This document shows positions 905 through 43,893 of a stretch of 64,000 bases of DNA, piece by piece. The DNA is taken from the NCBI RefSeq assembly GCF_037893015.1, contig NC_133661.1, positions 244,973,503 to 245,037,502 on the forward strand, written 5' to 3'. Numbering within the stretch: the first letter of the stretch is position 1; each line of letters opens with the position of its first letter. The DNA comes from Macrotis lagotis (taxonomy: Eukaryota > Chordata > Mammalia > Peramelemorphia > Peramelidae). Under the pieces are notes generated by a model that saw only the letters and a list, made by a program, of their open reading frames with translations, was not told where the DNA came from and searched no databases. Position numbers and translations under genes: made by a program.

Positions 905-3593
905 TTGATGGGGGCAAAGTCAAAATAGCATGAAGACAGGAATTCTGGGAAATTCATTGCTCAAAAATTTACAGAAGTCATCAAATTATGACTAGCCAAA
1001 ATTTAGAGGGCCAGAACCCACAGAAAGACTGAGTGATACAATTTCCTAGTCCAAGACAACTTAGAAATTCCACGAGAAAGTTCTATTCCACTGGGACTTG
1101 GGGCTAGAAAAAGCCACAGTGTAGCACAGCTGGGCCAGACACCTGGGTCCATGGCAGAAAGGGCCATTTACAAACCTACTGTCTGCAGAGCCACCAGGAA
1201 CAGCTTGAAGGGCTGCCACACCTGAGTGATTGGTAAGAGGAAAGCCAGACCCAGAGCAGCCTGCGGTGAGAATCTGCAACAAGAATTGGCAAAGCCACCC
1301 AGCACTTCCAGAGCTCCTAGCTCCCAGGTCAGGCGAAACTGCAGAGGTCTCTCTGCTCTCCCTGGGGCAAGACTCAACTGTTTTCCACATTCAGATCCAA
1401 GTTGCAGTTTGGGTCCCCACAATGCCACCGTAACTGAGCAGGGACCCTGCTCACAGATCTGGGGCAGAGGGGAGGGCCTCAACAAAAGCAAGAGAGCAGT
1501 CAGAGCCTCTCATAAGACTTTGGAGTAATTAAGGTCCCTAAAGGCTGAGGAAATGAGCAAACAACACAAAAAGAAGAAACTGACTATAGAAAATTATGTT
1601 GGTCCCATGGAATATTCAGAAGATGACAAAATCAAAGTTTCTGTATCCAAAACCTCCAAAAGAAATAGAAAATGGGCTCAGGCTATGGATGAGCTCAAAA
1701 AAGACTTTAAGAAGCAATTGAGGGAGAAAATGAAAAATTGGGAGGAGAAATGAGAGTGATGCAGATAAATCACAAAAACCAAGTCAGCAGGTTGGTGAAA
1801 GAAATACAAAAAATACTGAAGAAAGTAATATATGTAAAAAAAGAAAATAACATATTAAAAACCAGTTTTGGCCATATTAAAAAAGGATCCCAAATGAGGA
1901 GAGGAATGCCTTAAAATGCAGAATTGACCAGCTGGAAAAGGAGATAAAAGAAAAGCTCTCTGAAGAAACTACCTCATTCAAATGCAGAATGGAATTAAAG
2001 GAAGTTGATGACTTTGCAAGAACTCAGAAAGAAATAAGACTATATCAAAAAAAATTAGAAGAAAATGTAAAATATCACTGGAAAATGAACTGACTTTGAA
2101 AACAGATCTAGAAGAGATAATTTAAAAATTATTGGACTGCCTGAAAGTCAAGAATAGGAAAAGAGCCTAGATTTATTTTTCAAGTAATAATACAGAAAAA
2201 TTGCCCTGAGACCCTAGAAGCAGAGGATAAAATAGATTGAGGGAATTCACCAGTCACCTCCTGAAAGAAATCCAAAAAGAAAAACCTTCAGGGATATTAA
2301 AGCCAAATTCCAAAAATCCCAAATCAAAGTGAAAATACTAAAAGCTTCCAGAAACAAACAATTCAATGATCATGGCTCCATAGTCAGGATTACACAGGAT
2401 CTGGCAGCATCTACATTAAGGGCTCATAGGGATTGGAATATGATATTCTAGAAGGCAAAAGATCTTGGTTTACAACCGAGAATCAACTATCCAGCAAAAC
2501 TGAACATCCTCTTTCAGGGGAAAAGATGGATTTTCAATGAGACAGAGGACTTTCAAACTTTCCTATTGAGATGACCAGAGCTGAATAGAAAGTTTGATCT
2601 CTAAGTACAGGACTCAGGTGAACCTTAGAGGGAGTGGAAGAGATGGACTAACTATGAGGAACTTGATGATGTTGAACTGCTTGTATTCCTGCATGGGAAG
2701 AAGATATTGATAACTCATGTGAACTTTCTCATTTATTAGAGCTGTTAGAAGGAGCATATATAGACAGGACATAGGAAGGAGCAGAATATAATGGTAGGAT
2801 GTGGTAAAGGGATAGAGTCAATGTGTGATAAAGTAAAGTACTGGGAGGAAGAGAAAGGACAGGAAGAAGGAGCTAAGATATTTCACATAAGAGTCAAGAA
2901 AAAGGTTTACAATGGAGTCCAAAGGGAGTAGGCAAGGGGGAATGAGTGAGCCTTCATTCACATTAGAAATGGTTCAGAGAGGAAATAACCCACACACTTA
3001 ATAGGGTATATAAAGCTATCTTACCCTAGAGAAAAATGAGACAAAAGGAATAGTATAAGGGAGAATGGGGGGGAGAGGGGTGGAGTAGGTGATAGAAGAG
3101 AGGGAAGATTGTGGGACAGGGTACTCAGATACAACACACTTCTGAATAGGGACAGGATGAAAGGAGATAGAAAATGGAATAGATGAGAGTGGGAAAGAAT
3201 AGAGTGGAGGGAAATACTGCTAGTGATAGCAACTATGTGAAAAATATTGAAGTAACTTCTCTGGTGGTTATGTTGGAGAAGGCAACTCATCCCAGACAGA
3301 AAGCCATTGGAATCTGAACACAAACTGAATTATTGCATGAAATTCAAAACAAAACAAAAAAAATTTTTAAATCAAACAAAAAAAAGAAAAATATTGAAGT
3401 AACTTCTATGGTGACTATGATGAGGAAGGCAATTCATCCCAAAGACAAAGCCATTGTAATCTGAACACAGAATGGAGTACACTCTTTTGTCTCTCATTAT
3501 TCTTGAGATTTCTCATCTTTTTTGAGGGGGAGGGAGGTTTATGATTACTCTCACAACAAGATTATTATAATAATATAAAATAAACAATAAAAA
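905..3593 (+). mobile_element. HAL1 (half-L1), old near-full-length copy
   Basis: The layout is a 5' UTR (about 905-1552), a decayed ORF1 (from 1553) and a 3' UTR ending in the HAL1 tail (GATTACTCTCACAACAAG, then ATAAAATAAACAATAAAA) with no ORF2 between. The 5' UTR aligns in words with the younger copy at 10151 (AGAACCCACA, CCAGTTGCAG-like tract). The 3' UTR lacks all three antisense SINE modules found in younger copies, so this is an older subfamily. A possible imperfect TSD is AAGAAGTCAG (891-900) against AAGAAGGCAG (3594-3603). Decay and the plain 3' UTR both argue that this is the oldest long HAL1 here. Confidence 0.8.
1553..2610 (+). pseudogene. HAL1 ORF1 remnant (L1 ORF1p-like RNA-binding protein)
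   Basis: The start ATG gives MSKQHKKKKLTIENY, the same N-terminus as the HAL1 ORF1 at 10898 (MSKQRNKKKTIEKYF). The first frame runs 66 codons to a stop at 1753. Homology then continues in shifting frames through a coiled-coil region, the NLKIIGLPES-like RRM stretch near 2125 and the C-terminal NYPAKLNILFQGKRW-like stretch near 2485-2530. L1 ORF1p is a trimeric, coiled-coil, RNA-binding nucleic-acid chaperone that coats L1 RNA. This copy carries several frameshifts and stops and cannot encode it. Confidence 0.8.
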
Positions 3594-3737
3594 AGAAGGC
3601 AGAAGGCAGAAAAGTGGGAGACTGAAATTTTTCTTCAACAGTTCAAATCTCACTTTCTACTCTCTCTACCTAGAAATCAGATAAGACAACATTATTTCAT
3701 TTGAGTAAAAGAGTATCATGAAGAACCATTTTTTAAA

Positions 3738-3851
3738 AGTACAATCAGGTTTAAGAGACTTGTACAGGGTAATACAAGTAGTGTCTAACTCTGGATTTGA
3801 ACTCAGGTCCTCCAGCCTGGTGCTCTATCCACTAATCCACCTAGTAGCCCA
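3738..3851 (-). mobile_element. Old marsupial tRNA-derived SINE
   Basis: Read on the minus strand, it begins GGGCTACTAGGTGG, has an A-box-like AGTGGATAGAGCACC and a B-box GAGTTCAAATCC, and ends in a diverged AAGTCTCTTAAACC. It is more diverged than the common family copies. Confidence 0.7.
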
Positions 3852-4017
3852 AAGGAGAACTCCTAAAACTTTAACTATTCTTGGTGCCTAGATAGAACCA
3901 GAAAGATGAAGTAAAGAATTTGAAAGCAACAGAAATTTCCCCCTGCTCAAAAATATTTTACCAAATGAATGTTGCTCATTAGAAGCTTATAATCTCCTTT
4001 TAAAAGATACCAATTGG

Positions 4018-4161
4018 GGGTGGCTAGGTGGCGCAGTGGATAAAGCACCAGCCCTGGAGTCAGGAGTACCTGGGTTCAAATCCAGTCTCAAACACTTAAT
4101 AATTATCTAGCTGTGTGGCCTTGGGCAAGCCACTTAACCCCATTTGCCTTGCCAAAAAAAA
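4018..4161 (+). mobile_element. Marsupial tRNA-derived SINE
   Basis: Near-consensus copy: A box TGGCGCAGTGG, B box GGGTTCAAATCC, tail TTTGCCTTGCC plus A-run. It is flanked by a perfect 16-bp TSD AAAAGATACCAATTGG at 4002-4017 and 4162-4177, so insertion was by L1-type target-primed reverse transcription. Confidence 0.95.
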
Positions 4162-4868
4162 AAAAGATACCAATTGGCCAGGGGCTATGGAAATCCAAGA
4201 AATTTTGACACCTGAAATCATCTCAGAAAAGCCACTCCATTGAGAATTTCAGATAGTCTTCATTATGAACCATAACCTCCCTTAAACCATTTTAGGTAGG
4301 GAGATGTGCAATTTAATCAGAAAAATCTCTGTTTCCTCCAAGGAAGACCCAGTAATCTCCCTTTTACCATTCTCTAGGACCTGTGTGCCTATTACTGAGT
4401 TCTTCTAAAGTAAGGGATCTTAATCTGTTATCTATGAATCCCCAAGGGGTCTGAAGATAGTTTTCAGAAGAAGTCTGTGAACTTAAATCGGGGATAAAAT
4501 GGCATCAATATTGTCACTAACCTCTAATTGAAAATTAGCATTTCCTTCAATCATGAAGGTAGGCAACAAACCACTGGAGAATTAACATTAATTGTGTCAT
4601 AACTTGAAAGCACAGATGTTTTCATAACACTTTTACAAATATTATAGATTTCTCAAAAAATCATTTATGCTCATCACTATTTTAAACGTCTGTAGTTTTT
4701 AGATCGGCTGTAAAATTTATTATTACATAATTAAATATTAAAATATTTTAAAAACTAATTTTTAATATAATAGATTCTATTGCAATCTCATGTGAATTAT
4801 TTTATGCATTAAAGCTATCATTTAGGGAAGGGAATTTAAAGATTTCAAAAGCCTGACAAAACTCAATG

Positions 4869-5051
4869 CGGGGCGGGGGGCGGGGGGGCTAGGTGGCAGC
4901 TAGGTGGCGGAGTGGATAAAGCACTGGCCCTGGAGTCAGGAGTACCTGGGTTCAAATCAGCTCTCAGACACTCAATAATTACCTAGCTGTGTGGCCTTGG
5001 GCAAGCCACTTAATCCCATTTGCCTTGCAAAAACCTAAAAAAAAAAAAAAA
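4869..5051 (+). mobile_element. Marsupial SINE with duplicated head
   Basis: Full-length SINE ending GCAAAAACCT plus A-run. The first few bases are repeated (GGCTAGGTGG, CAGCTAGGTGG) after a G-rich run at 4868-4888. A TSD is likely, AAAACTCAATG before and AAAACTCAAATG after. Confidence 0.88.
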
Positions 5052-5054
5052 ACT

Positions 5055-5488
5055 CAAATGGGGGAAAAAGGGTATAATAACCAAATTCACTGAGATACCT
5101 CATTGTTAAGCATATATTCCAAGGAGATAAGTGACAAAAAGACCTCTCAGTCACCAAATATTTATAGTAACATTTTTTATTCTAACAAGAAAGTAGAAAA
5201 AAATTCAATGCCCATTAATTAGGGAATGTCTAAATAAACTGTAATATATGAATAAAATAGAAAATTAATATGTCATGAAGAACAATGCATGTAATTAATA
5301 GAGACAAATGAAAAACTTATCAACTAATGCAAACTGATGCAAAGCCAAAAAAAGCATATAGACAGTGACCTCAAAAATAAGAATGCAAATAACAGAAATA
5401 ATATAACAGACAAAAAGCTATGTTTTGGTTATTTTACTGAGTTCTATTTCTTCTCTTTTTCATTTTTTCTTATGAGAATAGAATTAGA
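5055..5488 (+). mobile_element. Old L1 3' region
   Basis: Wording of the ORF2 3' end of old mammalian L1 is visible: AATGCCCATTAATTAGGGAA near 5210, GAACAATGCATG, then an A-rich 3' UTR. It is strongly diverged; no frame is open. Confidence 0.5.
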
Positions 5489-5618
5489 AACAGCTGGGTG
5501 GTACAGTACAACACCAGCCCTGAAGACAGGACAACCTAAATTCAAATTCAGACTCAGACACTTGATATTTACTAACTATGTGACTTGGAGCAAGTCACTT
5601 AACCTTATCCAAAAAAAT
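5489..5618 (+). mobile_element. Old marsupial SINE
   Basis: Diverged copy: CAGCTGGGTGG head, AACACCAGCCCTG, a B-box-like region ATTCAAATTCAGACTC, ATGTGACTT and CAAGTCACTTAACC. Confidence 0.75.
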
Positions 5619-5639
5619 CAAACAAACAAAATATAATAA

Positions 5640-6035
5640 CATTTGATTCAATGGAAAGGTATAGAAGGAAAAAGACACTGAGAAAAATAGGTGATATAAA
5701 AACATGACAGCAACACACTTCTGAGAAGGGACAGGGTGAAAGGAGAGAAAGAAAAGAATGGGAATGTGGAGAAATAGAATAGAGAGAAATACAATTAACA
5801 ATAGCAACTATGGGGGAAAAAAAGTAGAGCAACTTCCCTGATGGATTTAGAATTAAGAATGCAACCCATCCCAGAGACAGAGTTGATGGTATTCGAACAG
5901 AAATTGAAGTACATTTTTTTCCTCTCACTTTATTTCTCATATGGTTTCTCTATGTTATCAGGGGAGGGGGATTTCTGTTGACTTTAACAAAATTATTGTG
6001 ATATGTGAAAATCAATAAATCATTTGAAATGGCTT
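5640..6035 (+). mobile_element. HAL1 3' UTR fragment, old type
   Basis: Aligns with 3120-3590 of the old HAL1: ACACACTTCTGAGAAGGGACAG, AATAGCAACTATG, ACCCATCCCAGAGACAGAG and GGGGAGGGGGATTTCTGTT, ending in an A-rich tail. The site where module 1 sits in younger copies is uninterrupted here (CAACACACTTCTGAGAAGGG), as is the site of modules 2 and 3. It is 5'-truncated, so it has no ORF1. Confidence 0.75.
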
Positions 6036-6194
6036 TCAAAAACAAAAATCCCTGATATAGTCCTGCATTATCTGGGCCTTACTCCAGTCTTTGATGACCT
6101 TCTATTCATCAAGACTAATAAAGACTAACCCTTCATATGAATTCTTCATAATATGACCTCTCATAGCTGTCACCCAATTGCATTCACAATGGGA

Positions 6195-6197
<3 letters not shown>

Positions 6198-6276
<79 letters not shown>

Positions 6277-6315
6277 AACAGAGACACAGAAAGAGAGACA
6301 CAGAGACACAGAGAA
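6198..6315. repeat. Compound (TG)n(GA)n microsatellite
   Basis: About 19 TG units are followed by about 17 GA units and then imperfect GACA/ACAGAGA repeats. Apparent His/Thr-rich frames on the minus strand are only translations of this. Confidence 0.95.
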
Positions 6316-6317
6316 AT

Positions 6318-6438
6318 GAAGTAATTGTGATTGAGTGTGGCCCAAGGTCACCCAGCTGGTAAGGATCTAAGGTCAAATTTAAACTAAGGTTCTCCTCAAC
6401 TTCAAGGCCAGTGCTCTATCCACATAACCGACCTGTCC
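6318..6438 (-). mobile_element. Old marsupial SINE
   Basis: The plus strand reads GGCCCAAGGTCACCCAGCTGG, AGGTCAAATTTAAACTAAGG and GGCCAGTGCTCTATCCACAT, which is the complement of the SINE body and head. Confidence 0.7.
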
Positions 6439-6479
6439 CAAGTGCTCAGCAGTCTTCACTAAGTAATACAATATATCCC

Positions 6480-6595
6480 AACTGCAGTTTTCTCATCTAA
6501 AAAATAAGAATGACAATGTTTAATCCACCTATCTCCATAGGACTACTAAAGGTAAAAACTGAGAAAAATTATGTTGAGCACTATTAACTATAGAG
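6480..6595 (+). mobile_element. MIR/THER 3' part
   Basis: Contains GCAGTTTTCTCATCTAAAAA, ATCCACCTATCTCC and a GTAAAAACTGAGAAAA stretch, equivalent to the 'tttcctcatctgtaaaatg' half of MIR-type CORE-SINEs. The 5' part is missing or unrecognisable. Confidence 0.45.
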
Positions 6596-6779
6596 AGTAG
6601 AAATAAGAAAACTGAGGAAGCAGAACTTTTAATCACATTTGGCTCATCATTATTCCATAAGTCACACATCCAATCAGGTGTCAAGTATTATTAATTCATT
6701 TGCCATAATATTCCATCCATGTCCTTCCACTCATACTTCCAATAGGTGCTCACCATTTATCCTATGACCTAATTTCTCA

Positions 6780-7060
6780 ATTCAAGTCAGCTCCCTGGAT
6801 CCAGCTTTTCCCTTTACAATTCATCCTTCATAGAGCTGCCACATGATCTACTTAAGGGTATACCTCTGATCATGTCACTCACCTACTCAAAAGGCTCCCT
6901 ATTGTCAAAAGAAAAAAACTACATAATTCTCAGCATGTTATCAATCCCCAGGATTCAAAAACCCAGATCCACTCTACAATTTCAACCTTGTTTCATATTA
7001 TTCTCTATTTCCAACAACTAGTTGTCCTCCTCTTATTTCTCACTACATTCAATCAGGACA
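6780..7060 (+). mobile_element. Ancient L2 LINE segment (probable)
   Basis: Words such as GAGCTGCCACATGATCTACTT, CTGATCATGTCACTCACC and CTCAAAAGGCTCCCTATTG resemble the 3' coding end of L2 as I recall it. Strongly diverged. Confidence 0.45.
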
Positions 7061-10075: not shown

Positions 10076-10897
10076 GACAGGAACAGTTCTAAAGTCTCCT
10101 GATCTCGTCCCCATCTATCACATGAAAAAAACCTCTTAAAAGAAATCCGAGGTGGCAGAGCCAAGATTGCAACAAGAAGGGATCCATTATTAGGAGCTCT
10201 CTGATAAAATTCATCAGCTAAGGACTCTAACTAAACTTTCGAGAGACAGAACCCACAAAGGGTCCCAGTGAGGCAGTTCTCCTACTCAAGGTAACCTGGA
10301 AAAGAGCAGAAAGGCTCTGCTCCCCGGGATTGGAAAGGCGGCCCACCAGAGGGGTGGCCCGCCAGAGCCAAAGAACCTCAGCCTCCCGGAGGCAGCCCCA
10401 AGGCGCTGGGAGTCTCAGCTCACAGCAGCGGGGGAGTCTCCTGCGCTACACCCCGAGGAGCACCGAGCACAAAGTGAGGGAACAGTGGGGGACCTCTGCC
10501 AGAGTGAGCACATGGAGCATAACACTCAGGGCACACAGAGAGCAGCATGGTCTTTCCCCAGCCCTGATCCAGGAAACAGAAGCAGGCGGAGCCCTTAAGC
10601 ATGAGCCCCCAGGGCATGAGCCCATTGAGCTGAGGGAGGGGAGTGAAGAGAGACTGCAGAGCTCAGTCCTCTGCCCCTGGAACTGGACTCTGGGGCTCTG
10701 ACCACACTCAGATCCTGATCGCAGTCTAGGCCCTCCAATAGAACAGCAGGGCCCCCTCCACCTCAGCCCTGTGGCAGAGGGGGGTGCATATGGACATTCA
10801 CAGAAGAGGAGGGAGGACAGAGCCTCATACACTGAGACCTTTGTGGGAATGTCCCAAAAGCTCAAGAAACACTCCAAACCAGGCCCAGGCTGGGAAA

Positions 10898-11929
10898 ATG
10901 AGCAAGCAGAGAAACAAAAAGAAGACTATTGAGAAATATTTTGCAAATGAGCCCAAGAAGGGCCAAAATACTCAGTCTGAAGATGAGGAAGCACAAGCTC
11001 CTGCATCTAAAGACTCCAAGAAAAACAGAAATGGGGCTCAGGCTATGACAGACCTCAAAAAACACTTTGCAAATCAATTGAGGGAGTTGGAAGAAAAACT
11101 GGGAAAAGAAAGGAGAGAGATGCAGGAAAAACATGAAAATGAAGTCAGCAGCTTAGTCAAGGAAATCCAAAAAAATGCTGAAGAAAATAGCATGCTAAAA
11201 ACCAGCTTAGGTCAAATGGATAAAACAGTTCAAAAAGTTATTGAGGAGAAGAATGCTTTAAAAAGCAAAATTGGCCAGATGGGAAAAAAGATAAGACAAC
11301 TCTCTGAGGAGAACAAATCCTTCAGACAAAGAATAGAATTCAGGGAGATTGATGAATTTACCAGAAATCAGGAATCAATACTTCAAAACCAAAAAAATGA
11401 AAAATTAGAAGAAAATGTGAAATATCTCATTGAAAAAACAACTGATATGGAAAACAGACTTAGGAAAGATAATTTAAAAATTATTGGAATACTTGAAAGT
11501 CATGATCAGGAAAAGAGCCTTGACATCATTTTCAAAGAATTACTACAGGAAAATTGCCCTGATATTCTAGAAGCAGAGGGCAAAATAGAAATGGAGAGAA
11601 TCCACCGATCCCCCAGAGAAAGAGATCCCAAAAAACAAACCCCTAGGAATATTATAGCCAAGTTCCAGAACTCCCAAGTCAAAGAGAAAATATTACAAGC
11701 AGCCAGAAGGACACAGTTCAAATATCGAGGAGCTGCAGTCAGGATCACACAGGACTTAGCAGCAGCTACATTGGAAGCTCATAGGGCTTGGAATACAATG
11801 TACCAGAAGGCAAAAGAGCTCAGAATGCAGCCAAGAATGAACTACCCAGCAAGTCTGAATGTCCTCTTCCAGGGAAAAAGATGGACTTTCAATGAACCAG
11901 GGGAATTTCAAAGGCTCCTTTTGGAATAG
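10898..11929 (+). CDS. HAL1 ORF1p, L1 ORF1-like RNA-binding protein (nearly complete)
   Basis: 343 codons from MSKQRNKKKTIEKYF. This ATG is chosen because the other HAL1 copies (1553, 23509) begin identically there; an upstream in-frame ATG at 10784 lies in 5' UTR sequence. Residues 2-48 are basic and polar; about 52-185 form a heptad-rich coiled coil (repeats such as SLGQMDK and KIGQMGK) expected to trimerise; about 190-270 form the RRM-like domain (DNLKIIG at 191); about 271-343 form the C-terminal domain with FKYRGAAVRITQDLAA and FQGKRWTF. The protein would bind and chaperone element RNA in a cytoplasmic RNP. A TGG-to-TAG change at 11927 ends it 27 codons before the family stop (TGA at 12008), so the C-terminal tail is lost. 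Confidence 0.85.
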   Translation: MSKQRNKKKTIEKYFANEPKKGQNTQSEDEEAQAPASKDSKKNRNGAQAMTDLKKHFANQLRELEEKLGKERREMQEKHENEVSSLVKEIQKNAEENSMLKTSLGQMDKTVQKVIEEKNALKSKIGQMGKKIRQLSEENKSFRQRIEFREIDEFTRNQESILQNQKNEKLEENVKYLIEKTTDMENRLRKDNLKIIGILESHDQEKSLDIIFKELLQENCPDILEAEGKIEMERIHRSPRERDPKKQTPRNIIAKFQNSQVKEKILQAARRTQFKYRGAAVRITQDLAAATLEAHRAWNTMYQKAKELRMQPRMNYPASLNVLFQGKRWTFNEPGEFQRLLLE

Positions 11930-12480
11930 CCAAAGTTGAACAGAAGGTTTGATCTTCAGATACAGGACTCAGGTGAAGCATGGAGATTGGAGGAGAGGGG
12001 GGAAATATGAGGGACTTAATGAGGATGAACTCCATGTATTCCTACATAGAAAAATGACACTGATAATACTCATATGAACCTTCTCAGTTAATAGAGCAGG
12101 TAGAGAGAGCTTTTATAGTTGAAGCACAGGAGAAAGCTGAATTTGAAGATAAAATATGGTGTAAAAATGGAGTCAATAGGGAAAAAAGGGAAATGGAATG
12201 GGAGAAAGAAAAAGGAGAGGGGGAATAGTCCAAGATATTTCACATAAGATTTTTTTTATTACAATGAGCTATTGCAATGATATGGAAGGGGGGAGGCAAG
12301 GGGGAATGAGGGAAACTTTGCTCTCATCAGAGATGGCTAGGAGAGGAAACAGCAAATATACTCAATGGGGTATAGACATCTGGAGTAAGAAGGAGGGGGT
12401 AGCAGGGGGAAGGGGTGGGGATGTGAATAAAGGAGGAGAGGATGGACCATGGGGGGAAAGTGGCCAGATATAACACATTT

Positions 12481-12637
12481 TCTTTCTTACTTCTTGCAAG
12501 GGGATGGGAATGGAAGGCCTGCCCAGGACCACAGGACCAGGTGGATTCTGGGCCTAAGGGGTGGTATGGGGGCTCAAAGGCTTCTTGGCCCAAAGGACCA
12601 GGGATCTGTCTGCTGCGCCACTCAGCAACCCTACAGC
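12481..12637 (-). mobile_element. Captured antisense SINE, HAL1 3' UTR module 1
   Basis: The reverse complement shows a SINE-like head (GCTGAGTGGCGCAGCAGACAG), then TGTGGTCCTGGGCAGGCC for the usual TGTGGCCTTGGGCAAGCC, and CCTTGCAAGAA at the tail. The middle is degenerate and the B box is lost. It is present at the same place in the copies at 23140, 39326 and 42073, so it belongs to the subfamily and is not a private insertion. Confidence 0.75.
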
Positions 12638-12841
12638 AGAGTCATAGTGAAAGGAGAGAAAAAATAGATTACACAGTAGTGGAGAAATAAGAAAGGAGGG
12701 AGTTGCGATCAGCAATGGCAACATTGGAAAAATATGGAAATAACTTTTGTGATGGAATTATCATAAAGAATGAGATCCACCCATGACAGAGTTGTTGGTG
12801 TTGGAACAAAGACTCAAGCCCATTTTTTGTTATTATTATTT

Positions 12842-12981
12842 GGGGGAGGGTGCAGGATGGAGGGGCTGGATGGCCTGCCTGGGGCCACATAGCGGGGTGA
12901 TCTTTGGGTATCTGGGGCCGGATTTGGACCCGGGTGCTTCTGGCTCAAGGGCCAATGCTCTGTCTGCCACCCAGCCACCCC
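12842..12981 (-). mobile_element. Captured antisense SINE, HAL1 3' UTR module 2
   Basis: The reverse complement starts GGGGTGGCTGGGTGGCAGAC and has a clear B box GGGTCCAAATCC and CTATGTGGCCCCAGGCAGGCC. Its A-tail equivalent is the TTTTTTGTTATTATTATT tract just before it on the plus strand. Confidence 0.8.
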
Positions 12982-13028
12982 TACTATTATTACTATTTTA
13001 TTTTATTTTGGGTCTTTTTTTGCTTTCT

Positions 13029-13178
13029 TTTTTTTTTGGTTTTTGCAGAGCAGTGGGCATCAGGTGGCTTGCATGTCACACGGCTGGGTGATTCTTGGGG
13101 TTATGAGACTGGATGTGGACTCGGGTGCTTGTGGCTCCAGGGCTGGTGCTTCATCCATTGAGCCACCTGGCCATACCT
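13029..13178 (-). mobile_element. Captured antisense SINE, HAL1 3' UTR module 3
   Basis: The reverse complement has GCCAGGTGGCTCAATGGATG, AGCACCAGCCCTGGAGCC, a decayed B box GAGTCCACATCC and CAGCCGTGTGAC, and ends CTCTGCAAAAACC plus A-run. It is separated from module 2 by a T/ATT-rich tract. Confidence 0.8.
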
Positions 13179-14085
13179 ACAATTATTACTATTATTATTT
13201 TTTTATTTTAATTTTTTTTCCTCTCCCCTTTACTTTTTTTGCCCAAACAAGTCTATCTATATTCATGGGGGAGGAGGGGTATTTTGTTTACTTGTAAACA
13301 AGAATATTTTATTAATGTAAAAAAACATTTGTACAAAATGAGAACAAAAAATAAATTAAAAAAAAATGAATAGATGAAAAAAAAAAGAAAGAAAGAAATC
13401 CGAACCAGGAAACCCAGAAAGAAAAGCCTGGAGAGGAACACTTACCTCAGGATTTGTCTCCCGCAGCAGCCTTGGCTGAGTACCGAGGGGTGGGTCTGGG
13501 CTCCGAGGGAGGAACAGCCCGGGATCAGCCAGATTAACAGCTGAATTGGAACCGGGAGTCTGAGGGCCTGGGAGCCGGACCTGCTGGATCAGTGGTGAGG
13601 CTGGACGAAGGGGGGCTTGGGTCTGCGGGGAAGCAGAGGCACGGGTGTTGGTGCAGTGCCCCTGAAGCTTGGGGAAGGGGCTGCAGGGAGAGGTCTGGTG
13701 CAGGAGAACTGCGGACACCATCCCTGGGCTCCTCAGGTCTGAGAAACTCTGAGTCCACACCTCCATTACACTGAAGACTCCTCCAAAACAAGCAATTGCA
13801 AACTACTTCTGCCTTAGGCCCAGGTGTGTGAGCAAAAGAACCAGCCCAGCTGAGGAATCACCTCAGGCCAGGGTAAAGCCCACCACTGATTGAAGGCAAA
13901 AGAATTCAATAGCTCCCATTCCTTCCCTCAAGCAAAGGGAGAAGGCCTTGAAACCAAGGTCACAGACACTCCAGAGAAATCAAACAGCACCTCCTACTGG
14001 CAAGCCAGAAAAACTGCACTCAGTAAAGCCTTTGGCAATCCCAAACCCAGGTGAACCAACCCCCCCAACTCAAGGTCTTAACATA

Positions 14086-22900: not shown

Positions 22901-23508
22901 GAAAATCTAAATAACAGGATCTGGATTGTGATAGCCCAAAACAAGCTTAAAGATATCAAAAAAAGGTATAGTTTTCATAAGGATATTGAATTAAAAAGGA
23001 TCAGAAAAGTAAAAGGGTAACTTTTATGTGATTAGGGTGAATAACATGATGGTCAACAGGGAAAAGTAAAGACTTCTAAACTTTTATTTTCCTTCAGTTT
23101 TCTCTGAAAAAGAGACTGATCTAGGATTGAAAAGGACAGGGCACACAGGGAGCAGCATGGTCTTTCCCCAGCCCTGATCCAGGAAACAGAAGCAGGCAGA
23201 GCCTGTAAGCAGGAGCCCCCAGGGCATGAGCCCATTGAGCTGAGGGAAGGGAGTGAAGAGAAACTGCAGAGCTCTTTACTCTGCCTCCTGAACAGGACTC
23301 TGGGGCTCTGACCAAATTCAGATGCTGATCACAGTCTAGGCCCCCCCATAGAACAGCAGGGCCCCCTCCCACCTCAGCCCCGTGGCAGAGGGGGGTGCTT
23401 ATGGTCATTCACAGACCAGGAGGGAGGACAGAGCCTCACACACTGAGACCTTTGTGGGAGTGTCCCAAAAGCTCAAGAAACACCCCAAACCAGGCCCAGG
23501 CTGGGAAA

Positions 23509-24610
23509 ATGAGCAAGCAGAGAAACAAAAAGAAGACTATTGAGAAATATTTTGCAAATGAGCCCAAGAAGGGCCAAAATACTCAGTCTGAAGATGAGGA
23601 AGCACAAGCTCCTGCATCTAAAGACTCCAAGAAAAACAGAAATGGGGCTCAGGCTATGGCAGAGCTCAAAAAAGACTTTGAAAATCAAATGAGGGAGTGG
23701 GAAGAAAAACTGGGAAAAGAAAGGAGAGAGATGCAGGAAAAACATGAAAATGAAGTCAGCAGCTTAGTCAAGGAAATCCAAAAAAATGCTGAAGAAAATA
23801 GCATGCTAAAAACCAGCTTAGGTCAAATGGATAAAACAGTTCAAAAAGTTATTGAGGAGAAGAATGCTTTAAAAAGCAAAATTGGCCAGATGGGACAAGA
23901 GATAAGAAAACTCTCTGAGGAGAACAAATCCTTCAGACAAAGAATAGAATTCAGGGAGATTGATGAATTTAACAGAAATCAGGAATCAATACTTCAAAAC
24001 AAAAAAATGAAAAATTAGAAGAAAATGTGAAATATCTCATTGAAAAAACAACTGATATGGAAAACAGACTTAGGAAAGATAATTTAAAAATTATTGGAAT
24101 ACCTGAAAGTCAGGATCAGGAAAAGAGCCTTGACATCATTTTCAAAGAATCACTACAGGAAAATTGCCCTGATATTCTAGAAGCAGAGGGCAAAATAGAA
24201 ATGGAGAGAATACACCGATCCCCCCGAGAAAGAGATCCCCAAAAAACCAACCCCTAGGAATATTATAGCCAAGTTCCAGAACTCCCGAGTCAAAGAGAAA
24301 ATATTACAAGCAGCTAGAAGGACACAGTGGAGCTGCAGTCAGGATCACACAGGACTTAGCAGCAGCTACATTGGAAGCTCGTAGGGCTTGGAATACAATA
24401 TAGCGGAAGGCAAAAGAGCTTAGAATGCAGCCAAGAATGAACTACCCAGCAAGGCTGCATGTCCTCTTCCAGGGAAAAAGATGGACTTTTAATGAACCAG
24501 GGGAATTTCAAAGGTTCCTTTTGGAATGGCCAGAGCTGAACAGAAGGTTTGATCTTCAGATACAGGACTCAGGTGAAGCATGGAGATTGGAGGAGAGGGG
24601 GGAAATATGA
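23509..24610 (+). pseudogene. HAL1 ORF1, frameshifted
   Basis: Starts MSKQRNKKKTIEKYF and is identical to the ORF1 at 10898 through the first 49 codons. A one-base loss near 24000 (AAAACAAAA where the other copy has AAAACCAAAA) ends the frame at 24018. A second shift lies near 24240, and a 13-base or similar loss near 24328 removes the FKYRG segment. The end shows the family C-terminus past the point where the 10898 copy stops: LLEWPELNRRFDLQIQDSGE and on to the stop at 24608-24610. This is the evidence that the family protein is about 370 residues long. Confidence 0.88.
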
Positions 24611-25082
24611 GGGACTTAATGAGGATGAACTCCATGTGTTCCTGCATAGAAAAATGACACTGATAATACTCATATGAACCTTCTCAGTTAATAGAGCAGG
24701 TAGAGAGAGCTTTTATAGTTGAAGCACAGGAGAAAGCTGAATTTGAAGATAAAATATGGTGTAAAAATGGAGTCAATAGGGAAAAAAGGGAAATGGAATG
24801 GGAGAAAGAAAAAGGAGAGGGGGAATAGTCCAAGATATTTCACATAAGATTTTTTTTATTACAATGAGCTATTGCAATGATATGGAAGGGGGGAGGCAAG
24901 GGGGAATGAGGGAAACTTTGCTCTCATCAGAGATGGCTAGGAGAGGAAACAGCAAATATACTCAATGGGGTATAGACATCTGGAGTAAGAAGGAGGGGGT
25001 AGCAGGGGGAAGGGGTGGGGATGTGAATAAAGGAGGAGAGGATGGACCATGGGGGGAAGAGTGGCCAGATATAACACATTTT

Positions 25083-25237
25083 CTTTCTTACTTCTTGCAA
25101 GGGGCTGGGAATGGAAGGCCTGCCCAGGACCACAGGGCCAGGTGGATTCTGGGCCTAAGGGGTGGTATGGGGGCTCAAGGGCTTCTTGGCCCCAGGACCA
25201 GTGATCTGTCTGCTGCGCCACTCAGCAACCCTACAGC
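25083..25237 (-). mobile_element. Captured antisense SINE module 1 (HAL1 at 23140)
   Basis: Near-identical to 12481-12637 and in the same place, so inherited with the HAL1. Confidence 0.75.
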
Positions 25238-25441
25238 AGAGTCATAGTGAAAGGAGAGAGAAAATAGATTACACGGTAGTGGAGAAATAAGAAAGGAGGG
25301 AGTTGCGATCAGCAATGGCAATGTTGGAAAAATATGGAAATAACTTTTGTGATGGAATTATCATAAAGAATGAGATCCACCCATGACAGAGTTGTTGGTG
25401 TTGGAACAAAGACTCAAGCACATTTTTTGTTATTATTATTT

Positions 25442-25583
25442 GAGGGAGGGTGCAGGGCAAGTGGGGCTGGATGGCCTTCCTGGGGCCACATAGCGGGGTG
25501 ATCTTTGGGTGTCTGGGGCCGGATTTGGACCCAGGTGCTCCTGGCTCAAGGGCCAATGCTCTGTCTGCCACCCAGCCACCCCT
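25442..25583 (-). mobile_element. Captured antisense SINE module 2 (HAL1 at 23140)
   Basis: Same as 12842-12981; the reverse complement keeps the B box as GGGTCCAAATCC. Confidence 0.8.
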
Positions 25584-25629
25584 ACTATTATTACTATTTT
25601 ATTTTATTTTGGGTCTCTTTTTTTCTTTC

Positions 25630-25778
25630 TTTTTTTTGGTTTTTGCAGGGCAGTGGGGATCGGGTGGCTTGCATGTCACACGGCTGGGTGATTGTTGGGT
25701 TTACGAGGCTGGATGTGGACTCGGGTGCTCATGGCTCCAGGGCTGGTGCTTCGTCCATTGCACCACCTGGCCATACCT
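25630..25778 (-). mobile_element. Captured antisense SINE module 3 (HAL1 at 23140)
   Basis: Same as 13029-13178; the reverse complement head reads GCCAGGTGGTGCAATGGACG. Confidence 0.8.
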
Positions 25779-26079
25779 ACAATTATTACTATTATTTTTT
25801 TTTATTTTAATTTTTTTCTCTCTCCTTTACTTTTTTCGCCCAAACAAGTCTATCTATATTCATGGGGGAGGAGGGGTATTTTGTTTACTTGTAAACAAGA
25901 ATATTTTATTAATGTAAAAAAAATTGTACAAAATGAGAATGAAAAAATAAATTTAAAAAAAGTTTTTAAAAAGTTAAAAAAAAGAAAAGAAAAGGACAGT
26001 AAAAGTGACCAAAAGAGAATACCTAAATCTATATGTAATCCTATCATTTTTGTGATTTTAATCAACCAAGTTTTGATCT

Positions 26080-33012: not shown

Positions 33013-33032
33013 TCAATTTATTAGATTAGCCC

Positions 33033-37030: not shown

Positions 37031-37169
37031 AAAATAAAACTAAAACTAGATCCAGCTTTAATTAATCGCAATGGCTGGAAAAGGGGTGATAAAATGCAGT
37101 GTTTTTTTCTATGGTTCTGAGAAGGATTCAGTTGTTTGGATTAAATGAAGAAATTATTATGGTATAAAA

Positions 37170-37345: not shown

Positions 37346-37491
37346 AGGTAAAAAAAGTACTAAAATACAAAACTTTGAAAAAATAACATTCATTAGTCTG
37401 GACATTACTGTCAGTATTTTGAGTAAACTATCATATATTAACTATCTATATGAACTTATGTGATTACTTAAATTCCATTGATTGCCTTTTT

Positions 37492-37640
37492 TTCTAGATT
37501 TTTCAAGGCAATGGGGTTAAGTGGCTTACCCAAGGCTACACAGCTGGCTAGGTAATTATTAAATGTCTGAGGCTGGATATGAGCTCAAGTACTCCTGACT
37601 CCAAGGCCAGTATTCCATCCACTGCGCCACTTAGCCGCCC
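37492..37640 (-). mobile_element. Marsupial SINE
   Basis: Antisense copy with a perfect 17-bp TSD CCATTGATTGCCTTTTT at 37475-37491 and 37641-37657. Confidence 0.95.
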
Positions 37641-37789
37641 CCATTGATTGCCTTTTTACATAAGTTTAAAAAAAAAAGGCATCCATAAAATTCTTTTAGA
37701 GTGGAACTAGGAGAACATTGTGATAATCAACTAAGGAGGGCTTAGCTCCTTTCAATGGACCAGTGATCAAGGATAGTTATAAAAGACAT

Positions 37790-38120
37790 GGTAGAAGGTT
37801 CCATGCACATCCAGAGAAAAAAACTATGGAATCTTAATACAGAACAATGCATATTATTTACACTTTTTAAATTGCATTTTAATTGTTTTCTTTCTCAATG
37901 GCTTTTTCACCTTTTATTGTGATTCTTCTTTGATAACATTAACTAATATACAAATATGTTAAAAACAATTATTCAATGATTTCTTTCTCAATATATTCAA
38001 TTTTGATCAATTTTTAGCATGGAAAACACTGTAAAGACTATCAGACTGCCTTTTGTGGGGCGGGGAGGGAAGCGAGATTGGGGAAAAAAATTGTAAAATT
38101 CAAAAAACAATTAAAAAAAA
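37790..38120 (+). mobile_element. L1 3' UTR end, older
   Basis: CATCCAGAGAAAAAAACTATGG, GATTTCTTTCTCAATATATTC, AGCATGGAAAACACTGTAAAG and a G-rich block at 38055-38090. Confidence 0.7.
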
Positions 38121-38269
38121 TTACACATATACAACCTATGTAAGACTAACAGAGGGAGGTAGAAAAATAAATGTGGGACTCAAAATCTTACCAAAAATAT
38201 AAATGTTAAAAGGTTTCTTTATATTAAGTTAGAAAAAAAAGTAAAAATTAAATTAAATGCTTTAAAATG

Positions 38270-39265
38270 AATGTTTAAAGCCATTCCCCAATTGACAAAT
38301 GGTCAAAGGATATGCAAAGGCAATTTACAGTTGAAAAAATTAAAGCAATCCATAAACATATGAAAAATAGCTATAAATCACTACTTATTAGAGAAATACA
38401 AATTAAAGCATCTCTGAGGTACCATCTCACACCTCTCAGACTGGCCAATATGACCAGAAAGAAAAATGATCAATGTTGGAAGGGATGTGGGAAATCTGGG
38501 ACACTACTACATTGTTGGTGGAGCTGTGAACTCATCCAGCCTTTCTGGAGAGAAATTTGGATCTATGCCTAAAGGGCAAAAGAAATGTGCATACCCTTTG
38601 ATCCAGCAATACCAGTACTAGGTCTATACCCTGAAGAGATGATGAGAAAGGGTAAAAAACATCACTTGCACAAAAATATTCATAGCAGCCCTGTTTGTGG
38701 AGGCAAAGAATTGGAAATCAAGTAAATGTCCATCAATTGAGGTGGTATATGTATGTCATGGAACACTATTGTTCTATTAGAAATCAGGAGGGATGGGAAT
38801 AAGGGAAGCCTGGAGGGATTTCCATGAACTGATGCTGAGTGAGATGAGCAGAACCAGAAAAACACTGTACACCCTAACAGTAACATGGGGGCAATGATCA
38901 ACCTCGATGGACTCTCTCATTCCATCAGAGCAACAATCAGGGACAATTTGGGGATCTCTACAATGGAGAATATCTGTATCCAGAGAAACAACTGTGGACT
39001 TTAAACAAAGAGCAAGGACTATTACCTTTTAATTTAGGGGGAAAAAACTGTTTTCTCACTGTCTGATCTTGCTATCTCTTATACTTTATGTTTCTTCCAT
39101 AAGGATATGATTTCTCTTTCATCACATTCAATTTGGATCAATGTATACCATGGAAACAATGTAAAGACGGACAAATTGCCTTCTGTGGGGTGTGGGGGGA
39201 AGGAAAGTAAAATTAGGGGAAAAATTGTAAAACCCAAAATAAATAAAAATCTTAAAAAAAAAAAA
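38270..39265 (+). mobile_element. L1, 5'-truncated ORF2 end plus 3' UTR
   Basis: Colinear with 19087-20100. One frame (38312-38572) still reads YHLTPLRLANMTRKKNDQC followed by WKGCGKSGTLLHCWWSC, keeping the full CX3CX7HX4C knuckle of ORF2p. It ends in a 3' UTR with GATCAATGTATACC and an A-run tail. Confidence 0.88.
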
Positions 39266-40062
39266 AAGAATTGTGGAGTTTGAACAAAGACCAAACATTA
39301 TTACCTTCAATTTAGAAAAAAACCAGGGGTGGAACCAAGATGGCTGCAGGAAAACAGCCTCTCTTAGGTGCTCTCTCCAAAATATTTCAAAAACCTTAAA
39401 ATTATAACTCTAAATTTTCAAGAGATTGAACCCACAGAAGATCCAGTGAGGCAAGGTAATCTGGAAAATAGTGGGAAAACTCTGTTTCACGGGGTTAGAG
39501 GGGCAGCCCCACCAGAGAGAAGGAACTTCAGTGTCATGGGAACAGCCCGAAGGCACCTGGGGGCCATGGCTCCCCAGAGCAGAAGCAGTTTCCTGACATG
39601 TACCTCAGGGAGAACCAAGGACAACTTGGAACATCAGCCCAGAGACCTCTGCCAGGGCAAGCATGAAGCCCAGCCCCTCAATGCCATCAAGTCTTTCTAC
39701 AAAGCGCACACCCTCAAAACGGTTATGGACCTGGAAACAGAAGCAGACCTGTGAAGTCGCCCAGCAGAAGCCTCCAGGCAGCTGCACCTTGAGTGCTTAG
39801 CCCATCAAAGGTAAGGGAATGGAGGGAGACTTCTAAAGTCTGTCTTCTGTCCCTGGAACAGGACTCTGGGACTCTGACCACATTCAGATCCTGATCGCAA
39901 TCTAGCCCCCCATAGAGCAGGGACCACCCCCAACTCTAAACCCCATGGCAGAGGGGTGCGCTTGTGGTCATTCACAGACCAAGAGAGCAGTCAGAGCCTC
40001 ACACACTGAGGTCCTTGTGGGGATATATCAATAATACACAAAAGCTCAGGAAGAACTCCAAA

Positions 40063-40102
40063 TCACTTAACCCCATTTGACTTGCAAAAAAAAAAAAAAA
40101 GA
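40063..40102 (+). mobile_element. SINE 3' tail fragment inside HAL1
   Basis: CACTTAACCCCATTTGACTTGC plus A-run is the last part of the common SINE, 5'-truncated and placed at a deletion junction in HAL1 ORF1. Confidence 0.8.
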
Positions 40103-40920
40103 AAGAAACTAACATGTTAAAAACCAGCTTAGGTCAAATGGATAAAGTACTTCAAAAAGTTAATGAGTAGAAGAATGCTTTAAAAAGCAGAACTGGCAAG
40201 ATGAAAAAGGAGATAAGAAAACTCTCTGAGGAAAACAAATCCTTCAGGTGTAGAATGGAGCTAAAGGAAACTGATGATATTGTGAGAAATCAAGACACAA
40301 AAATCCAATGCCAAAAGAATGAAAAATTAGAAGAAAATGTGAAATATCTCATTGAAAAAAACAACTGATCTGGAAATAGATTCAGGAAAGATAATTTAAA
40401 AATTATTGGGATGCCTGAAAGTCATGATCAGGAAAAGAGCCTTGACCTCATTTTTAAAGAATTCCTACAGGAAAATTGTCCTAATATACTAGAAACAGAG
40501 GGTAAAATAGAAACTGAGAGAATCCACCAATCTCCCCCAGAAAGAGATCCAAAAAAAAAAACGACCCCCAAGAATATTATAGCCAAGTTCCAAAATTCCC
40601 AAGTCAAATAGAAAGTATTACAAGCAGCCAGAAGGACACAATTCAAATAATGTGCAACTGCAGTCAGGATCACACAGGACTTAGCAGCAACTACATTAAG
40701 GGGTCATAGGGCTTAGAATGTAATATTCCAGAAGGCAAAAGAGCTTGGAATCAAACTGAGAAATCAACTACCCAGGAAAAACTAAACATCCTCTTCCAGG
40801 GGAAAAGTTGGACTTTCAATGAAATAAGGGAATTTCAAATGTTCCTGTTGAAATGAACAGAGCTAAACAGAAAGTTTGACCTTCAAGTACAGGACTCAGG
40901 TGAAGCATAGAGAACAGAGG
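40103..40920 (+). pseudogene. HAL1 ORF1 remnant, N-terminus deleted
   Basis: Homologous to codons of about residue 95 onwards of the ORF at 10898 (TNMLKTSLGQMDKVLQKVNE). One open part, 40411-40611, reads PESHDQEKSLDLIFKEFLQE. Several stops and shifts follow; at the tryptophan codon where the 10898 copy stops, this one has TGA. Confidence 0.8.
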
Positions 40921-41400
40921 AGAAAGGTAAAATATGAGGGACTTAATGATGATGAACTACATGTGTTCATGCATGGAAAAATGATATTGATAATACTCGT
41001 ATGAACCTTCTCATTTAATAGAGCAGGTAGAAGGAGCTTTATAGATGAAGCAAAGGAGAGAGCTGAATTTGAAGATATGATATATTGTAAAAATGGAGTC
41101 AATGGCTAAAATGGAAATGTACTGGTAGTAAGAGAAAGGAGAAGTGGAATTGGCTAAAATATTTCATATAAAATATATTTTTTTAAATAAACTTTGTCAA
41201 ATATGGAAGGGGAAGGTGAGGGGGAATGAGGGAACCTTCATTCTCAGAAATGACTAAGAGAGGAAACAGCATACACACTCTATAAGGTATAAACATCTAG
41301 AGAAAAAAAGAAGATAAGGGTGACAGGGGGAAGTAGGGGGATGTAAGTGAGAGTGGAGAGGGTAGATCATAGAAGAGAATAGTCAGATATTACATATTTT

Positions 41401-41557
41401 ACTTTTTTATTTTTTGCAAGGTGTTGTGATTGGGTGGGCTGTCTGGGACCACTGGGCCGGGTGGGTTGCTGGGTCTCTGGAGTGGGATGTAGGCTTGGGG
41501 CCTCTTGTTCTCAGGGTCAATATTCTGTCTGCTGCACCACTCAGATACACTATAGCA
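41401..41557 (-). mobile_element. Captured antisense SINE module 1 (HAL1 at 39326)
   Basis: Same place as 12481-12637. The reverse complement has GAGTGGTGCAGCAGACAG and ends in TTGCAAAAAATAAAAAAG. It is the only module in this copy. Confidence 0.75.
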
Positions 41558-43041
41558 CAGAGTGAAAGGAGAAAGAAAATATAATAGATGGTAGTGGGGA
41601 GAAATGGATGGAGGGAATTACAATCAGCAACAGCAGTAAAATATGGAAGTAACTTTTCTGATGGACTTATGATAAAGAATGTGATCCACCGAAACAAAGC
41701 TGATGGTATCAGAACACAGACTGAAACACATTTTTTTCTCTTTCTTTTATTTTATTTCTCAACAGGTCTTATATTTTTGTGGGGGAGGGGGTATTATGTT
41801 TACTCTTAAACAAGAATATTTTAGTGATGTATAAATAAAAAAAATAAACAAAAAACCATTATGTGATTATATAATTTTGCTATCTCTTATACTTTATTTT
41901 TCTTCCATAAGGATACGCTTTCTTTCTCGTTATATTCAACATAGATCAATGTATACCACAGAAACAATTTAAAGGTTAATAGACTGCCTTCTGTGGAGGG
42001 GGGGGGAAGCAAGAATATGTGAAAAAAATTGTAAAACTCAAAATAAATAAAATCTTTCTTCAAAAAAGAGAATGTCAAGGGGGAGCAGAGCCAAGATGGT
42101 GACAGGAAAAGAGCCTTTCGTAGCTGCTCACTATCAAAACTCATAAAATAAGGACTCTAACTAAATTTTCGAGAGACAGAACCCACAAAGAGATCCAAAA
42201 AAAACAACCCCCAGGAATATTATAGCCAAGTTCCAGAACTCCCAATTCAAAGAGAAAATAATACAAGCAGCCAGAAGGATACAATTCAGATAATGTAGAC
42301 CTGCAGTCTACATTATCACACAGGACTTAGCAGCAACTACAATAAAGGCTCGTAGGGCTTGGAATATAATAGAGCTCAAAATGCAACCGAGAATCAACTA
42401 CCCAGCAAAACTGAATGTCCTCTTCCAGGGAAAAAGATGGACTTTCAATGAATCAAGGGAATTTCAAATGTTCCTGTTAAAATGGCCAGAGCTGAACAGA
42501 AAGTTTGAGCTTCAAATATAGGACTCAGGTGAAGCATAGAGAGTGGAGGAGAAGGGGAAAATATAAGGGACTTAATGATGAAGAACTACATGTATTCCTG
42601 TATAGAAAAATGATACTGATAATATTCATAAGAAACTTCTCAGTTAATAGAGCAGGTAGAAGGAGTTTTTATAGATGACGCACAGGAGAGAGCTGAATTT
42701 GAAGATATAATATATTGTAAAAATGGAGTCAATAGCGAAAAGGGAAATGTAATGGAAGTAAGAGAAAGGAGATGTGGAATAGGCTAAGATATTTCATATA
42801 ATAAGAATTTTTTTTATTAAAATGAGCTATTGCAATGATATGGAAGGGTGGAAGGCAAGGGGGAATGAGGGAATCTTCGTTCTCTTCAGAGGTGTCTAGG
42901 AGAGGAAACAAGCATATATACTCAATGGGGTATAGGCATCTGGAGTAAGAAGGAGGGTGGGGAGGAGACAAGAGGAAGGGGTGGGGATGTGAATGATGGA
43001 GAGGATGGACCATGGAGGGGAGAGTGGTCAGATATAACACA

Positions 43042-43196
43042 TTTTTTTTTTACTTCTTGCAAGGGGCTGGGATTGGATGGCCTGTCTGGAACCCAGGGCC
43101 GGGTGGTTCCTGGGCATTAGGGGTAGTTTGTGGGCGCAGAGCCTCTTGGTCCCAGGGCCAGTGATTGGCCTGGTGCACCACTCAGCTGCCCAATAG
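43042..43196 (-). mobile_element. Captured antisense SINE module 1 (HAL1 at 42073)
   Basis: Best preserved example: the right flank still shows the duplicated target (ACACATTT at 43037-43044, CACATTT at 43197-43203). The reverse complement begins GGGCAGCTGAGTGGTGCACC. Confidence 0.82.
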
Positions 43197-43435
43197 CACA
43201 TTTATGAAGAGGGACAGAGTGAAAGGAGAGAGAAAATATAGTATGTGGTAGTGGGGAAGTATGAATGGGGGGAGTTGCAATCAACAGTGACAACAGTGGA
43301 AAAAATATGGAAGTTACTTTTCTGATGAACTTATAATAAAGAATGTGATCCACTCACAACAGAGCTGGTGGTGTTGGAACACAGTCTGAAGCACATTTAT
43401 TATTGCTGTTGTTATTGTTGTTGTTGTTGTTGTTG

Positions 43436-43576
43436 TTTGCAGGGGAGTTGCCGGGTAAAAAGGGTTGGGTGGCTTGTCCAAGGCCACACAGCTGGGTGCT
43501 TGTTGGTTGGGTGTCTGAGGCCAGATTTAAGCTCCAGGATCCATGGCCAGTGATCTGCCCACGGTACCACCTAGTC
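43436..43576 (-). mobile_element. Captured antisense SINE module 2 (HAL1 at 42073)
   Basis: The reverse complement reads GACTAGGTGGTACCGTGGG, CACTGGCCATGGATCCTGG and CAGCTGTGTGGCCTTGGAC. Its tail is the (TTG)n run before 43436. Confidence 0.82.
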
Positions 43577-43627
<51 letters not shown>

Positions 43628-43628
43628 T
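43577..43628. repeat. (TTA)n microsatellite between SINE modules
   Basis: About 16 TTA units lie between modules 2 and 3; it probably grew from the A-rich tail of module 3. Confidence 0.95.
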
Positions 43629-43733
43629 GGTTTTTGCAAGGGAGTGGTGTTGGGGTGTCTGGGGCTGGATTTGGGCTTGGGTGCTCCTGGCTCCAGGGCT
43701 AGTGCTCTGTCCACTGCACCACCTAGCTGCCCC
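43627..43733 (-). mobile_element. Captured antisense SINE module 3 (HAL1 at 42073)
   Basis: The reverse complement begins GGGGCAGCTAGGTGGTGCAG with AGCACTAGCCCTGGAGCC and ends CTTGCAAAAACC. About 40 bases in the middle are missing. Confidence 0.82.
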
Positions 43734-43893
43734 TATTATTATTTTTTAATTTAATTTTTTTCTTTACTTTATTGCTCATGAGGGTCTATATTTTGGGGGG
43801 AGGGGTATTATGTTTACTCTTAAACAAGAATATTTTAGTATTGTATAAAAAAGTCATTTATACAAAAATAAAAATATAAAAAAATTGAAAAAT

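Follow-up and report, generated by a model that had tools for sequence, protein, structure and literature searches.

HAL1-like copies in the window

The window analysed here, a stretch of 64,000 nucleotides of Macrotis lagotis (NC_133661.1, positions 244,973,503 to 245,037,502), contains six copies of a HAL1-like retrotransposon, some of which carry in their 3' untranslated region (UTR) antisense modules, named A, B and C, that match a short interspersed element (SINE) of the same window. HAL1 (half-L1) is described as a non-autonomous L1 derivative with open reading frame 1 (ORF1) only and with several origins in mammals (PMC5753468). The original prediction had placed three module states (none, A, and A+B+C) at particular positions of the six copies, and self-BLAST together with alignment confirmed both the states and the positions. 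The copies and modules are as follows.

905..3593, + strand: old HAL1 copy without a module at site A, B or C (self-BLAST, six-copy alignment)
5640..6035, + strand: old HAL1 3' end, sites empty (alignment)
10151..13394, + strand: young HAL1 copy with modules A, B and C (self-BLAST, alignment)
10784..11929, + strand: ORF1 of the 10151 copy (Pfam L1 ORF1p RNA-binding domain and dsRBD; ORF2 absent downstream within the element)
12497..12640, - strand: module A of the 10151 copy, antisense SINE
12841..12984, - strand: module B of the 10151 copy, antisense SINE
13035..13178, - strand: module C of the 10151 copy, antisense SINE
23137..25992, + strand: HAL1 copy with A, B and C (the 23140 copy; self-BLAST)
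25098..25240, - strand: module A of the 23140 copy
25441..25585, - strand: module B of the 23140 copy
25635..25778, - strand: module C of the 23140 copy
39326..41849, + strand: HAL1 copy carrying module A and nothing at the B/C site (alignment)
41412..41557, - strand: module A of the 39326 copy
42073..43893, + strand: 5'-truncated HAL1 copy with A, B and C, early branch of the ABC clade
43058..43198, - strand: module A of the 42073 copy
43437..43577, - strand: module B of the 42073 copy
43626..43743, - strand: module C of the 42073 copy, with an internal deletion

The ORF at 10784-11926 matched Pfam Transposase_22 (2.4e-11), the RNA-binding domain of L1 ORF1p, and dsRBD (2.8e-05), and a Pfam search with the broken ORF of the 23140 copy gave no match. 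ORF2 was absent from the 10151 copy: in the 1.4 kb after ORF1, the sole listed + strand ORF of at least 100 amino acids has 102 amino acids. The 3' UTR of this copy is common to the related copies, A-rich ends are present, and its nearest relative is the 23140 copy (97% over the ORF1 end and the pre-A region). Judged by its sequence, the element is HAL1-like, a putative ORF1-only, non-autonomous L1 derivative; it resembles HAL1 in this respect and apparently differs from it in the antisense SINE modules of its 3' UTR. A further HAL1 3' end lies at the left edge of the window (9-118).

In the self-BLAST and the six-copy alignment, site A was empty in 905-3593 and 5640-6035 and filled in the 39326, 42073, 10151 and 23140 copies, and in the same alignment sites B and C were empty in the 905, 5640 and 39326 copies and filled in the other three. 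All modules were antisense matches to the window SINE, with 62% (A), 77% (B) and 79% (C) consensus identity over 141-149 aligned sites, the consensus being built from 29 free copies in the window. The three modules of the 10151 copy sum to 432 bases. Chance similarity was rejected. The free SINEs of at least 120 bases in the window (n=29) are skewed in strand, with 25 on + and four on -.

Order of module gain

Copies beyond the window were sampled by searching the genome (3.66 Gb) with three queries. With 42073-43893 as query, 40 places were found, one of them the query itself; since it contains modules, this query is biased to ABC copies. The 39 other loci were all read, and 35 of them carry A, B and C at the same places. 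Private module positions were rejected. In L017, L024 and L031 the sequence near site B is interrupted or deleted, with the start of B kept in L024 and a B remnant plus the whole of C in L031, and L040 ends after module A. The second query, 40536-41395, contains no module and found 39 places other than its own; all ten loci fetched (10 of the 11 best) carry A, nine of them with an intact empty B/C site and one (L047) with this site interrupted by a CA repeat. A module-free query from L016 gave 39 other places; among ten of the best, seven carry all three modules, B was lost from L052, a single B-C hybrid module stands in L056, and L058 ends in A. In L018 (4100-4834), the end of the HAL1 copy, comprising part of the AB segment, B, C and the sequence after them, is tandemly doubled.

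Trees were built from the ORF1 end and the pre-A sequence, with modules excluded, for 53 rows and then for 63 rows (58 scored). L001, the window itself, was dropped, and L040, which has no AB segment, is absent from the later trees. L017, L024 and L031 were not scored for state, nor were L056 and L058 in the 63-row tree; L009 and L038 were recoded as ABC after reading, L047 was scored as A despite its broken B site, and L052 as ABC despite the loss of B. In the 53-row tree the states 0, A and ABC need two changes, with ABC as a single clade (support 100/100), and the 63-row tree gave the same two changes and one ABC clade. Scoring interrupted copies as A-only had raised the number of changes to 6 to 7 and rejected the ABC clade (p=6e-06), whereas two changes sufficed once these copies were read correctly. 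The tree is comb-like, as expected of a master lineage; its zero state rests on the two window copies 905 and 5640, and its outgroup is one long branch (905).

Divergence from the own consensus had a median of 0.066 in A-only copies (n=11) and 0.046 in ABC copies (n=38; Mann-Whitney p=0.0002), which supports A-only copies being older than ABC copies. Between ABC and A-only copies, age rises in reverse of module number, as had been predicted, and the shared places and the nested tree bear out the view that the modules were inherited and that the family amplified with them. Neither private module positions or target duplications nor basal three-module copies were found among the sampled copies. 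A composite, nested HAL1 lineage, passing from 0 to A to ABC, is well supported.

Insertion at site A and gain of B and C

In A-only copies, site A reads about ATATAACACATTTT, the T-rich complement of the tail, the module and then CTACAGCACATTTTAGAAGAGGGACAG, and the empty site in the 905 copy reads ACAACACACTTCTGAATAGGGACAGG. An A-rich SINE tail is present and CACATTTT flanks module A on both sides. The target duplication is recognisable downstream in all ten A-only loci and is kept as exact CACATTTT in six (L041, L044, L045, L046, L048 and L050); its downstream part is still present in the 42073 copy, and among the copies of the 42073-43893 sample whose site sequence was compared it was lost from all but L016. 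The cut site on the SINE strand is CT/AAAA, a type that fits L1-type insertion. Because of the duplication CACATTTT and this cut site, module A is read as an L1-type SINE insertion.

A former T tract holds modules B and C, arranged head to tail and bordered by TTA repeats. Their low-complexity flanks are not decisive for a target duplication, and the 17-base match that flanks C in late copies is weak for the same reason. No copy with A and B only was found among the copies read. With changes read on the HAL1 sense strand against the SINE consensus, B has 14 and C has 16 derived A>G sites, 13 of which are common to both. Since no A+B-only copy was seen, 13 derived sites are shared, and the modules stand head to tail between TTA repeats, B and C were likelier gained in one step as a tandem pair, through insertion of a SINE dimer or through tandem duplication; three independent captures were rejected on the shared sites and the missing A+B-only state. 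The stepwise capture of SINEs proposed earlier therefore holds in that A came first and B/C later, but the last step looks like one event rather than two captures. A free head-to-tail SINE dimer in the window (55946-56257, period 156) is a possible model for the B/C pair.

A>G excess and predicted pairing of the modules

Seven early-type ABC copies (L016, L051, L055, L057, L059, L060 and 42073) were chosen for having the A-site duplication and both modules B and C; L053 and L054, retrieved in the same batch, were grouped with late copies. The counts used are those of the early-type consensus and the first parsimony reconstruction, the reconstruction with ten more copies being weakened at the start of B by an alignment slip and in C by L057. 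In the consensus of the seven copies, B and C together showed A>G at 30/60, T>C at 6/64, C>T at 3/74 and G>A at 2/72 sites and no transversions (A>G 14/30 in B and 16/30 in C; T>C 3/32 in each). The HAL1 flanks (ORF1 end and pre-A region) changed from A to G at 14/327 sites on the stem to ABC (Fisher p=8e-18 against the modules, the pooled count treating B and C as independent). Module A in A-only copies showed A>G at 18/30 and T>C at 6/32 sites, plus 21 other changes, and shares ten of its derived sites with B and 13 with C. Because module A reached 18/30 in A-only copies and then gained only 1/14 later, the change arose early after each gain and then nearly stopped. On parsimony tips, a lean to A>G was seen in A (40/926 vs T>C 27/1440) and B (35/620 vs 27/946) and hardly in C (23/546 vs 39/1159).

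One-strand A>G change concentrated in a duplex-forming segment, as seen here, is the footprint looked for in editing by ADAR, for which a 5' neighbour preference of U > A > C > G and a 3' preference for G are described (PMC11276115). In early-type B, change had hit 8/8 of the A sites preceded by U, 4/7 of those preceded by A, 1/4 by G and 1/11 by C; the corresponding counts were 7/8, 5/7, 3/4 and 1/11 in early-type C, and 5/8, 5/7, 3/4 and 5/11 in module A. Comparing 5' U/A with 5' C/G gave 12/15 vs 2/15 in B (p=0.0007) and 12/15 vs 4/15 in C (p=0.009). B and C thus agree with the U/A part of the ADAR rule, and A does not. There is sequence support for editing, a point that the original prediction had left as inference.

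The duplex predicted with SINE RNA reached -272 kcal/mol for early-type B and -268 kcal/mol for early-type C, compared with -299 kcal/mol for a perfect match and about -85 kcal/mol for shuffled modules. Later modules would pair more weakly (B -225 and C -232 kcal/mol; A -187, then -162 kcal/mol). The complementarity to SINE RNA that had been pointed out is real, but it is imperfect. In the AB segment, sense SINEs lie near one L1-cut-like spot, AAAGAATGTGAT, in L038, L057 and L060, where they were separately inserted. The AAAGAATGTGAT spot is apparently an L1 cut hotspot within HAL1, and a sense SINE there would form a hairpin with the antisense modules.

Proposed course of events

We give slightly better than even odds to the view that a HAL1 source lineage took up antisense SINEs and that ADAR-edited modules then became heritable by retrotransposition. 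In this view, one tRNA-type poly(A) SINE inserted antisense at site A by L1-type target-primed reverse transcription, a head-to-tail SINE pair was later gained at B/C by dimer insertion or duplication, and the modules were copied along with the element as passengers. The antisense orientation would probably be the tolerated one, because it adds no sense RNA polymerase III (Pol III) promoter or poly(A) tract; the inherited modules are all antisense, although two or three events are too few to prove such a filter. The antisense modules of the HAL1 RNA may then pair with SINE RNA, either in cis with a nearby sense SINE or in trans, the latter being possible because HAL1-type elements and SINEs would both use L1 proteins. 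Within the duplex, ADAR would convert A to I, which reverse transcription would then fix as G in a new source copy, soon after each gain. We infer from the sequence pattern that editing, reverse transcription and the founding of the next source copy would have followed one another; that the modules turned HAL1 RNA into an ADAR substrate, that hyper-edited HAL1 RNA was reverse transcribed and became the family source in at least two bursts (A, then B/C), and that editing of RNA thereby shaped how a mobile element evolved in the germ line, seems to us an even bet. A benefit of the modules for mobility, which had been raised, found no support, the family having amplified both with and without B/C, and need not be assumed.

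Alternatives to editing

Several results weigh against editing of the modules. Changes private to single copies showed no A>G excess (modules, A>G 23/1870 and T>C 36/3287), much as in the flanks (A>G 129/16091 and T>C 95/9790), with no strand asymmetry per copy. Module A carries 27 other changes beside its 18 A>G and has no neighbour preference (10/15 after U/A vs 8/15 after C/G). Sites after C are depleted also since CA>CG makes an unstable CpG; with these sites excluded, a class of 5'U or AAG, chosen post hoc, gave p=0.0003 in B and p=0.12 in C, and on parsimony roots the same class gave p=0.0025 in B, 0.26 in C and 1.0 in A. As B and C share 13 sites, they are not independent and amount to at most one test. 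On the stem, the flanks too lean to A>G (14/327 vs T>C 1/179), as does the AB segment (6/70 vs 1/40), and the lean of the flanks recurs on internal branches (52/12665 vs 15/6830), as would suit an ordinary transcription-linked A>G asymmetry of an active source element. However, the rate in the modules is about ten times that in the flanks (30/60 vs 14/327, or 20/397 with the AB segment; the time spans are not exactly equal), and we hold such an asymmetry to be a very improbable source of the module changes.

The modules might also have been altered by selection acting on the HAL1 lineage, whether against Pol III boxes in antisense, against pairing or for a G-rich 3' UTR; they turn G-rich on the sense strand, and in the late consensus all three have an altered B box. 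Against this, the A sites of early-type B and C became G 30 times and never C or T, no other base became G, the changes are spread over the whole module, and C>T, which is also wobble-neutral for pairing, is low (3/74). Selection therefore appears to us a rather improbable cause.

The reading of the modules as ordinary decayed SINEs was rejected, because C>T and G>A dominate the changes in free SINEs. Among 80 free SINEs, T>C, the same change on the SINE strand, stands at 3.5% and is the lowest transition, and these SINEs carry C in 1.4% on average at the 17 sites where two or more modules have changed. None of 89 free SINEs had three or more of the nine derived states common to the modules. 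At these nine sites, G was counted in 6/528 positions of 62 sense SINEs, vs 993/1107 in 125 B/C modules (which include L061-L080, picked for the haplotype) and 231/312 in A modules; the class of other antisense SINEs in this count consists of seven module A rows at locus ends and L075. When the genome was searched for the pattern of the derived haplotype at five of these sites, allowing up to two mismatches, 851 places matched, and the reversed control matched none. Among the matches listed, 20 places were fetched, every one of the six exact matches plus 14 single-mismatch places, and 19 of them are HAL1 module B. In their readable parts, two private antisense SINEs in or beside HAL1 copies (L052 and L074) lacked this change. 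On the free SINEs and the 20 places read, a common free SINE subfamily is an unlikely source.

The main rival to editing is a SINE subfamily, rare or now extinct, in which these sites were C before capture, so that HAL1 did no more than carry it. The sharing of sites among modules (13 of 14 and 16 between early-type B and C, and ten and 13 between these and A) would suit it, as would the tRNA-type B box kept in early-type B of L051. The nine-site haplotype is moreover complete in early-type B copies (0/63 cells ancestral), which fits a SINE captured in that state, and the one other haplotype place fetched, L075, holds a mixed-state SINE in antisense orientation within a HAL1 ORF1. Conversely, none of the 89 free SINEs reaches three of the nine states, 19 of the 20 fetched places (of 851, with zero or one mismatch) are HAL1, and a subfamily of this kind would need its own strand-specific process, T>C being the rarest transition in free SINEs. 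The B boxes are also changed in late B, early-type C and module A, so that some change postdates capture. We consider this origin unlikely. The L075 SINE (369-505) carries five of the nine derived sites, by chance or as a second edited antisense SINE.

Relation to known systems and significance

SVA and LAVA are described as composite elements that depend on L1 and contain two partial Alu copies in antisense (PMC7353768). The present family resembles them in having antisense SINE parts in an L1-dependent composite; SVA/LAVA are hominoid and have hexamer repeats, a variable number of tandem repeats (VNTR) and a 5' Alu-like domain, whereas a HAL1 host with ORF1 is found here, without hexamer repeat, Alu-like domain or VNTR, with the modules in the 3' UTR and the order of gain readable from surviving copies. 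The antisense SINE build is thus already known in kind from SVA/LAVA, and the A>G bursts are the surprising part. By resemblance, we take the window SINE to be of the WSINE1/SINE1_Mdo type. WSINE1 is described as having a tRNA-related head, a short CORE and a poly(A) tail, and as expected to be propagated by L1 (PMC3403934). Unlike such elements, the modules lie antisense inside HAL1, are changed from A to G and have ceased to be independent units. Inverted SINE pairs edited by ADAR likewise show A>G changes in SINE duplexes with a 5' U/A preference; such editing is known from RNA, whereas the changes proposed here would be permanent in the DNA of a family that amplifies. Neither antisense SINEs in HAL1 nor ADAR scars in an element family were found in titles and abstract openings of the literature.

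Surviving copies preserve the stages in which a composite retrotransposon was built: an empty site, then one module, then three. If the bursts are edited RNA turned into DNA, ADAR writes lasting changes into element families, beyond restraining or marking their RNA, and such a role for Alu was called undetermined by a 2016 review (PMC4982230). Hundreds of copies of this family could serve to test the idea, and internal controls are at hand in the unchanged SINE, the free SINEs and the HAL1 flanks.

Other features of the window

ORF fragments lie at 53164-54226; they resemble a replication factor C subunit and are presumably a processed pseudogene. Direct repeats of about 331 bases (57223-57553 and 63669-64000) are 99% identical and 6.4 kb apart, the second adjoining an N run, and could be the ends of a young long terminal repeat element.

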